DNA of 64,000 bases from Guyparkeria hydrothermalis (lineage in GTDB: Bacteria; Pseudomonadota; Gammaproteobacteria; Halothiobacillales; Halothiobacillaceae), in assembly GCF_023555375.1 (NCBI RefSeq), contig NZ_JAJSEE010000002.1, forward strand, positions 124,001 to 188,000, written 5' to 3'. Positions 34,700-53,174 of this stretch are shown here, in pieces. Every line of letters begins with the position of its first letter. Position 1 is the stretch's first letter. Position numbers and translations under genes: made by a program. The notes under the pieces were generated by a model. That model saw nothing but the letters and a program-made list of their open reading frames with translations. It was not told the DNA's origin and did not search any database.

Positions 34700-34728
34700 T
34701 TGACGAAAGGTGCGCGGGTCGCTAAGAT
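34700..34728 (+). promoter_or_regulatory. Promoter of the rplU-rpmA operon
   Basis: -35 TTGACG (34700-34705), exact 17-base spacer, -10 TAAGAT (34723-34728). The predicted start near 34735 lies just before the left arm of the inverted-repeat element, so the element would form the 5' end of the L21 mRNA. Confidence 0.65.
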
Positions 34729-34739
34729 TGCGCGCCTTT

Positions 34740-35009
34740 ACGGAAGGCCTGCACGAATTCGATACCGCTCTGCGGGCCTTGAGCCGGGCAGATGCAAGGC
34801 GACCGTCCGCCGGACAGGGTGATTCCCTTTCCAAGGGCGGCAACGCGGCAGATGGCCGGCTCAAGGCCCGCCCTTCGGGGCCAGTCGAGCCGCCCGTGCT
34901 CTTCGTTGCGCCGTCTTGACGTGGCCGCCGGCACGCCAGCGACGTCGGCGCCTTGATCACGAGCGGCTCGACTGGCCAGAGTGGCATCGAATTCGTGCAG
35001 ACCTTCCGT
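34740..35009. repeat. 270-base branched inverted-repeat element in the rplU leader
   Basis: Outer 33-base arms at 34740-34772 and 34977-35009 pair at 30 of 33 positions. Inside are two separate stems: 34774-34789 with 34854-34869 (15/16) and 34879-34898 with 34958-34977 (19/20). Smaller hairpins lie within the first stem loop (GTCCGCCGGAC; CCCTT..AAGGG). The layout predicts a three-way junction in RNA or a cruciform in DNA. It could be a miniature mobile element or a structured leader. I do not recognise the family. Confidence 0.8.
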
Positions 35010-35078
35010 TAACAACGCCTGCCGGTGACTGCGATGCGTCATCGGCTCCTTTACGCATAAACATTCGGGTTTTACAGC

Positions 35079-35390
35079 ATGTACGCAGTGGTCGTTACCG
35101 GCGGTAAGCAGTACCGCGTCGAGCAAGGCAGCAAGGTGCGCGTCGAGAAGCTCTCTGGCGAAGCCGGCAGCACCGTGACGCTGGATCAGGTTTTGATGGT
35201 CGGCGACGGCTCTGACATCAAGGTGGGCACCCCCACCGTCGATGGCGCGAGCGTTACCGCCGAGATCGTCGGCCAGGGTCGCGGCAAGAAGGTGGAAATC
35301 CTCAAGTTCCGCCGCCGCAAGCACCACATGAAGCGTCAGGGCCATCGCCAGGCCTACACCGAACTCAAGATCACCGGTATCAGCGCCTAA
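35079..35390 (+). CDS. rplU: 50S ribosomal protein L21
   Basis: 103 residues, standard L21: [25 protein letters not shown], ending [16 protein letters not shown] 35079 is fixed by homology. The upstream sequence lacks a clear Shine-Dalgarno, which may matter together with the structured leader. rpmA follows after 32 bases, preceded by GGAG. Confidence 0.97.
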
Positions 35391-35422: not shown

Positions 35423-35680
35423 ATGGCACATAAAAAAGCAGCGGGCTCTACCCGGAACGGTCGCGACAGTGAAAGCAAGCGCCTCGGCGTGAAGCGTTTC
35501 GGTGGCGAAGCCGTCTCCGCCGGCAGCATCATCGTTCGTCAGCGTGGCACCAAGTTCCACGCCGGCAGCAACGTGGGCGTTGGCCGCGACTACACCCTGT
35601 TCGCCCTGACCGACGGCCAGGTGAAGTTCGAGACCAAGGGTCCGAAGAGCCGCCGTTTCGTCAGCATCGAGCCGGCGTAA
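35423..35680 (+). CDS. rpmA: 50S ribosomal protein L27
   Basis: 85 residues, beginning [20 protein letters not shown] as in typical gammaproteobacterial L27 (no cleaved N-terminal leader as in Firmicutes). It pairs with L21 in the operon. A terminator-like hairpin separates it from obgE. Confidence 0.97.
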
Positions 35681-52334: not shown

Positions 52335-53174
52335 CGGATGCTCCTGAAATGATTTGGAAAAACGAGCGGCCGACCTCTGTGGGTCGGCCGGGAAACGGGG
52401 TGATCAACTGCTGGTTATTGTAACAACAGATTGTTGATGGGGTTGATGTCGTGCCGGTGGGATGTCCGTTTTGGGAAGCGGGAGAGGTTTCGCACGCCTG
52501 TCTCGTGGAGCGGCCAAGATCGGCCGCCTTGCCTGGCGTGCGAGCCCCTTTTCTTGCTTGCCCAAGAAAAGGGGCGAAAAGAAGGGCACCCCGGCGTCCT
52601 GGCCCTGCGGGCCTTCGAGCCCGGACGGTGTCCGGACTCGAAGCCTCGCGACCGGCGGCTGCCTTCGGGGCCGGCTCGACGTGACTTCCTGTCACGGCGA
52701 GCTTCGGAGCGACCTCCCTGTCGCTCCGACCCCGAGTCATCCACCGGTCGCGAGGCAGGACGCAAGGGGGCGTCGCCTTGCCATCTGGTGGAGTTGCCTG
52801 AATGCCGAGAGAGCGGCGGAGCTTGGAGGTCGGTTCCCAAGCTGGATCGGAGGGTCGAGCCCCTTGTGCCTTGCCTCGCGAGCGAGGGGTTGCAGGGTCG
52901 GGCTCGCATGGACGCGAGCCCGAGGTTCGCCGCGACAGGATGTCGCGTCGAACCGACCCGTCCGCAATCCCTCGTTCGCGAGGCTGATCGGCTCGGATGC
53001 AATCCGAGTCGATCAGGCCCGAAGGGCCAAGGCATCGGGGTGTCTTCTTTTCGTCGGTTTTCTTGGACAAGCAAGAAAATCGACTCGCACGCCGAGCACG
53101 GCAGTGCTCAGTGCCACGTCGGCAGACCGGCGTGCGAAACCCTGACGAGGGTTGGTCAGGTCCGCCAAGACGAA
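52335..53174. other. 840-base non-coding gap between dapC and dapD
   Basis: 52335-52486 is the dapD upstream region with an AT-rich patch (GTTATTGTAACAACAGATTG) likely holding its promoter. 52487-53140 is the nested inverted-repeat island described separately. Open frames across the island in several registers reflect palindromes and base composition and are not supported as genes. Confidence 0.85.
52487..53140. repeat. 654-base nested palindrome island
   Basis: The outer ends GTTTCGCACGCC (52487-52498) and GGCGTGCGAAAC (53129-53140) are perfect complements. GGCGTGCGAG (52535) pairs with CTCGCACGCC (53084). A longer arm at 52549-52613 pairs imperfectly with 53016-53079 (shared TTTTCTTGCTTG, CCAAGAAAA, CGAAAAGAAG). 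Within lie stems 52644-52655/52744-52755 (12 bp perfect), 52706-52713/52720-52727, GTGAC-GTCAC at 52681, a long stem 52874-52902 with 52954-52983, and hairpins at 52900-52921, 52931-52947 and 52992-53008. Several loops contain TCC(C/A/T)TG-like strings. No transposase is present. Confidence 0.85.

Follow-up and report, generated by a model that had tools for sequence, protein, structure and literature searches.

A mobile three-way-junction element upstream of rplU in Guyparkeria, with an interior hairpin module that recurs across proteobacterial families

The region upstream of the ribosomal protein genes rplU and rpmA in Guyparkeria hydrothermalis contains a multi-copy mobile element with terminal inverted repeats, flanked by target repeats of the TA type; in relatives, orthologous sites lack it. 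Inside, one hairpin module is present twice, in inverted orientation, and this arrangement recurs with different stems and different ends across many proteobacterial families. The feature at rplU is very probably one copy of a non-autonomous MITE, with putative mobilisation in trans by a DDE transposase and a module role at the DNA level, and together these elements are best read as a structure-conserved MITE superfamily.

The element at rplU, its fold and its surroundings

Within the window, i.e. the whole stretch of 64,000 nucleotides that was analysed, a first-pass annotation had described a branched inverted-repeat structure at 34740-35009, and this structure is real, with three arm pairs far beyond chance. 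The outer arms (34737-34772 and 34977-35012) comprise 36 nt at 89% complementarity; the pairing claimed for an outer 33-base arm stands, and the bounds of the element are corrected to 34741-35008. The two inner stems, put at 15-19 bp by the same annotation, are present and longer than claimed, with 24 nt at 88% complementarity (34772-34795 and 34848-34871) and 23 nt at 91% (34879-34901 and 34955-34977). The RNA fold of 34735-35015 reaches -186.1 kcal/mol (z = -13.5), with 0/200 shuffles as good; folded as ssDNA the same stretch gives z = -11.7, and the opposite strand of the element, folded as RNA, is equally stable (z = -15.1). The parts of the region are as follows, with the evidence for each in brackets.

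34700..34728, + strand: sigma-70-type promoter TTGACG-17-TAAGAT, predicted for the rplU-rpmA transcript (sequence, promoter scan, relatives)
34738..34740, no strand: left target-repeat copy TTA, bounding the element (sequence; compared with empty sites)
34741..35008, no strand: mobile element with three-way junction, 268 bp (copies, ends, empty sites)
34741..34772, + strand: 5' arm of the outer stem, the left terminal inverted repeat, CGGAAGGCCTGCACGAATTCGATACCGCTCTG (arm pairing, copy ends, covariation)
34768..34880, + strand: module A, a double-bulged hairpin with the motif CAAGGCG...CAACGC and a junction mini-stem (covariance model R1, 119.9 bits, E 5.5e-26)
34871..34981, - strand: module B, the same hairpin module as A, inverted (covariance model R1, 47.5 bits, E 5.8e-9)
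34977..35008, + strand: 3' arm of the outer stem, the right terminal inverted repeat (arm pairing, copy ends, covariation)
35009..35011, no strand: right target-repeat copy TTA, bounding the element (sequence)
35012..35078, + strand: native leader of rplU, which relatives lacking the element also have; its last ~30 nt are nearly invariant and the short hairpin before them varies (relatives)
35079..35390, + strand: rplU, L21 (ORF)
35423..35680, + strand: rpmA, L27 (ORF)

The near-consensus promoter annotated at 34700-34728 is borne out, TTGACG-N17-TAAGAT being the sole promoter match in the region (0.1 expected) and being kept upstream of rplU in all relatives read. Equally, the rplU start does lack a visible Shine-Dalgarno ahead of the ATG at 35079, and the 30 nt preceding this ATG are nearly identical genus-wide. 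Judged from the position of the promoter, the element is likely to be transcribed into the rplU message. With its TTA/TTAA target lying a few bases downstream of the predicted transcription start, the insertion would lengthen the predicted 5' leader from ~75 to ~345 nt (+~270 nt). This is probably tolerated because neither the promoter nor the native ribosome-binding region is disrupted, and any effect of the element on rplU would be incidental.

The native leader itself (35012-35078; loci L044-L053) has a short hairpin, the arms of which vary between species in a seemingly compensatory way, followed by ~30 nearly invariant nt without a Shine-Dalgarno, TTACGCATAAACATTCGGGTTTTACAGC-ATG. It has no Rfam match, and the hairpin and invariant stretch together are possibly a genuine small leader element. 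Elsewhere in the window a TwoAYGGAY RNA (RF01731) lies at 52867-52985 (+), with 63.1 bits.

Copies, empty sites and target

Searched with 34735-35015, the genome itself yields ~24 full-length copies and 16 partial ones, which lie on both strands and are 80-88% identical, and the element is carried by 10/11 Guyparkeria genomes, the one without it being only 64% complete. Full copies are nearly always 268 bp, with no transposase frame common to them, and shorter derivatives of 44, 70, 94, 142 and 164-208 bp keep the ends and have lost one inner arm or both. With ≤3 mismatches allowed, 93 occurrences of the ends were counted and none of the reversed control. According to a crude gene call, the copies lie mostly in short intergenic gaps, often between tandem genes. 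L063 (G000, 142 bp) and L182 (G009, 268 bp) have common flanks; they are apparently one insertion, internally deleted in G000, a case that shows how short derivatives arise. G010 has two elements side by side both at L039:1228-1767 and at L220:2877-3426, which suggests that one element inserted next to another. In G000 (C7), a pair of solitary ends spanning 3.6 kb was considered as a transposon and rejected, since housekeeping genes lie between them.

The region upstream of rplU could be read in 10 relatives, and in 7 of them the site is empty, both promoter and native leader being preserved; it reads GCGCGCCTTCAAACAACG in G005, compared with GCGCGCCTTTA, the element and then TTAACAACG in the filled site of G000. 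Flank matching gave a few tens more empty sites at other loci, of which the clean ones fit a TA-cored YTAR target (e.g. GATGCTAATGAGGG, CGTTAGACTG) and others have altered flanks. The copy ends read YTAR, then GGAA..TTCC, then YTAR. Of 78 copies, 38 have TA directly beyond the 5' end, 33 beyond the 3' end and 22 beyond both, compared with a TA share of 1.1% among dinucleotides. The target repeat is non-uniform across copies, appearing as TA, TTA or YTAR. One insertion is common to four species, in which the elements are 91-94% identical. The element has these features of a MITE: a size below ~500 bp, no transposase gene, terminal inverted repeats, target-site duplication with empty sites, and many dispersed copies.

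The first-pass annotation had left a choice between a regulatory role, as structured leader of the L21-L27 operon, and the arrival of a miniature mobile element exactly at the start site, to be settled by counting copies across the genome. The count falls on the side of the MITE, together with the terminal inverted repeats, the TA-type target duplication and the empty sites. That the rplU-rpmA operon has here a cis-regulatory leader RNA of its own is highly improbable: such a leader would fit the location at the predicted transcript start, the very stable fold, and the rplU-site copies of G000 and G009, which share one position and are 97.8% identical where their rplU-rpmA-obg DNA is 90.5% identical, but dozens of copies lie at unrelated sites, most relatives lack the element at rplU, no Rfam leader matches, and a copy at the same site in G007 (86% identical) falls outside the G000/G009 pair. 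In all, the element sits at the same nucleotide of the rplU locus in three species (L001 in G000, L031 in G009, L033 in G007), and the G000 and G009 copies are much more alike than their flanks; these two genomes are not sisters in the rplU-rpmA-obg tree. Repeated insertion at a favoured target, short-tract transfer or selection are possible accounts of this three-species occupancy.

The interior module beyond the genus

A class-wide search returned 68-81% matches to the element interior in other families, at loci with the same three-way junction and different stem sequences. In an alignment of 15 such modules, 24/37 pairs have two-sided changes between families, and the TGC-AGGC, CAAC and GCAG blocks around the two bulges are invariant. 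The covariance model R1, which represents one hairpin module and was built from this alignment, matches 100/369 sampled gammaproteobacterial genomes, i.e. about a quarter, in 79/271 genera at E ≤ 1e-3, and 59/398 genomes of a phylum sample, 25 of these outside Gammaproteobacteria; many genomes have at least 9-10 sites. The repeated unit measures 265-271 bp in genomes of several families, and G148 holds seven copies at different sites that are 99-100% identical and have therefore moved recently.

An overlapping inverted module pair, with A and B on opposite strands as in the window, occurs in 19/20 loci tested; in L343 the second module is marginal (E 0.09). CAAGGCG ... CAACGC is common to modules A and B. 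Arm pairing within an element is 0.95 for the outer stem, 0.97 for A and 0.98 for B, compared with 0.41-0.51 between species, the own values being slightly flattered by registers picked to maximise own pairing. Terminal sequences differ by lineage, namely GTGTACTGCG.. in G110, GTGTCCTGTCTCC.. in G051, CTAAGACAAACG.. in G148 (terminal repeat CTAAGACAAACGATAAC), GGAAACGCTGATTAATTC.. in G371, GGGCACCTCTATTAAT.. in G157 and G282, and GGAACCTCTGCACGAAT.. in G172, and nearly every element read is TA-flanked. BLAST of the element copies against plasmids and phages gave no match, nor did the module pattern in viral contigs, and no Rfam family matches the element at gathering or permissive thresholds; sub-threshold Rfam matches (mir-734, M23, mir-181, MIR6201 and others) are unlikely to be real.

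Within the genus, 35/84 pairs among 71 full copies have two-sided changes, with 281 covarying cells compared with 81.5 ± 13.4 in shuffles, a count drawn from related copies and not from independent events. All three stems contribute, and the signal is lost when the 3' partners are slid. Mutation in place of selection would provide another source of this covariation, through quasi-palindrome correction between arms or the inheritance of perfect arms by young copies from a master copy. The outer stem, with 20 rare two-sided and 49 rare one-sided states, and a 5' C / 3' G pair at the ends of the rplU copy that is absent from most copies, both speak for such an origin; it leaves unexplained why the bulge motifs, which are unpaired, and a length of 265-271 bp are kept across families, and we regard it as somewhat unlikely.

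An RNA-strand bias, i.e. G.U over A.C, was sought in the genus copies and in family modules and was not found: rare pair variants in the genus number 35 G.U and 33 A.C, and the lower stems of 38 modules across families hold 11 and 9, both comparisons having limited power. This result bears on the idea of a mobile element whose hairpins act as RNA, the Y-shaped transcript being processed (e.g. by RNase III) or stabilising neighbour messages and its fold conserved for that reason. The placement of copies in short gaps between tandem genes and the very stable RNA fold on either strand agree with this, and Correia/NEMIS, MITEs of other bacteria, undergo processing as RNA (PMC2229807). We nevertheless consider it unlikely, given the missing G.U excess and the inverted arrangement, by which each transcript has one module and one complement. 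The same two observations, an inverted dyad with one module per strand and no G.U bias, are our grounds for favouring a DNA-level role, in which the paired hairpins, either folded in single-stranded DNA or serving as two inverted binding sites, may help transposition or its regulation. Such a role would account for structure and bulge motifs that persist despite drift of the stem sequences.

More tentatively, and with slightly less than even confidence, we propose that the superfamily is defined by its folded interior, an inverted pair of double-bulged hairpin modules with a fixed overall length, which has been joined to different terminal repeats across Pseudomonadota, both IS5-like YTAR-GGAA ends and other TA-flanked ends. 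The core would then be selected for mobility, e.g. because it recruits a host factor or an enzyme that reads single strands, and would be able to switch transposases. Interior structure and bulge motifs persist across families (79/271 gammaproteobacterial genera sampled) and terminal repeats are lineage-specific; if the superfamily is truly interior-defined, the structured core would have its own selected role in mobility. One could then test which factor recognises the folded core and whether different transposases serve one MITE chassis, and a single covariance model could annotate hundreds of unexplained intergenic repeats.

Candidate transposases and relation to known elements

Considering how the Guyparkeria element moves, a DDE transposase acting in trans, IS5-type here and others elsewhere, would recognise the terminal repeats. 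The ends, YTAR followed by GGAARNTCTGCACGAAT, resemble IS5-type ends, and the YTAR target together with GGAA.. ends agrees with derivation from the IS5 family; from ends and target only we infer an IS5 assignment for the element and, because of the YTAR-GGAA ends, a putative IS5-type transposase. In a sister-genus genome an IS5-like transposase frame adjoins ctag followed by GGAACCTCTGATTGAATC, and this IS5-like element and the Guyparkeria element have GGAACCTCTG in common. Within the genus, PF01609 (IS4/IS5) has no match in 10/11 genomes, the host's among them, and the lone PF01609 protein, in G002, is IS4-like by eye; PF13358 (IS630) has no match in any of the 11. IS630 and IS4/IS5 partners sought in the genus gave none with ends shown to match the element, and the IS630-type transposases of G148, G222 and G347 were rejected as partners of the elements there since their ends do not match. 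Possibly the Guyparkeria element is stranded or has its partner in another transposase family.

Movement by a non-DDE route, e.g. a single-strand HUH or integrase-like enzyme reading the folded hairpins, would suit an interior that is conserved across families where the ends are not, bulged hairpins that resemble single-strand recognition sites in general design, and the failure to find a partner transposase. TA-type target repeats with long terminal inverted repeats are, however, typical of DDE transposition, and the target duplication is visible at empty sites, which makes this route quite improbable.

MITEs are usually defined by their ends, which they usually, though not by strict requirement, have in common with a parent IS, and their interiors are thought expendable. 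The present element is like IS5-type MITEs in being short, non-coding, multi-copy and intergenic, with terminal inverted repeats and a YTAR/TA target repeat, and differs in conserving its interior between bacterial families while the ends change; it is this conservation of interior instead of ends that sets it apart. REPIN/BIME elements are inverted pairs of short REP hairpins moved by RAYT (Y1) enzymes, and REPs are without long terminal inverted repeats or TA duplication. The inverted pair of conserved hairpins and the equivalence of strands are shared with the present element, whereas its modules are ~110 nt and lie inside terminal repeats.

Other comparisons are with elements described in the literature. 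RUP of Streptococcus pneumoniae is likewise non-autonomous with TA targets, and its ends have been compared with those of an IS, IS630-Spn1; it differs in its 107 bp, and PMC2229807 describes no conserved inverted hairpin-module pair for it. CIR repeats of Caulobacter/Brucella similarly form two arms from two long inverted repeats, but have no end-to-end outer stem (terminal repeat), occur in other organisms and differ in motif, with GANTC in a loop (PMC2229807). By its description (PMC5896051), QMITE1 of Coxiella burnetii is likewise a MITE from a gammaproteobacterium, has about the same size and is predicted to form a large fold, but is confined to C. burnetii. A three-way-junction MITE was not described in the open-access literature searched, so that an earlier description elsewhere is possible, and term searches of the reviews PMC10969869 and PMC2229807 led to no passage with an account of this element.

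The sister genus (G019, G021; L090, L096, L099, L104) also has other palindromic elements, of 150-175 bp, with ends that read YTAR followed by GGAANNTCTGCAC and with a different interior.
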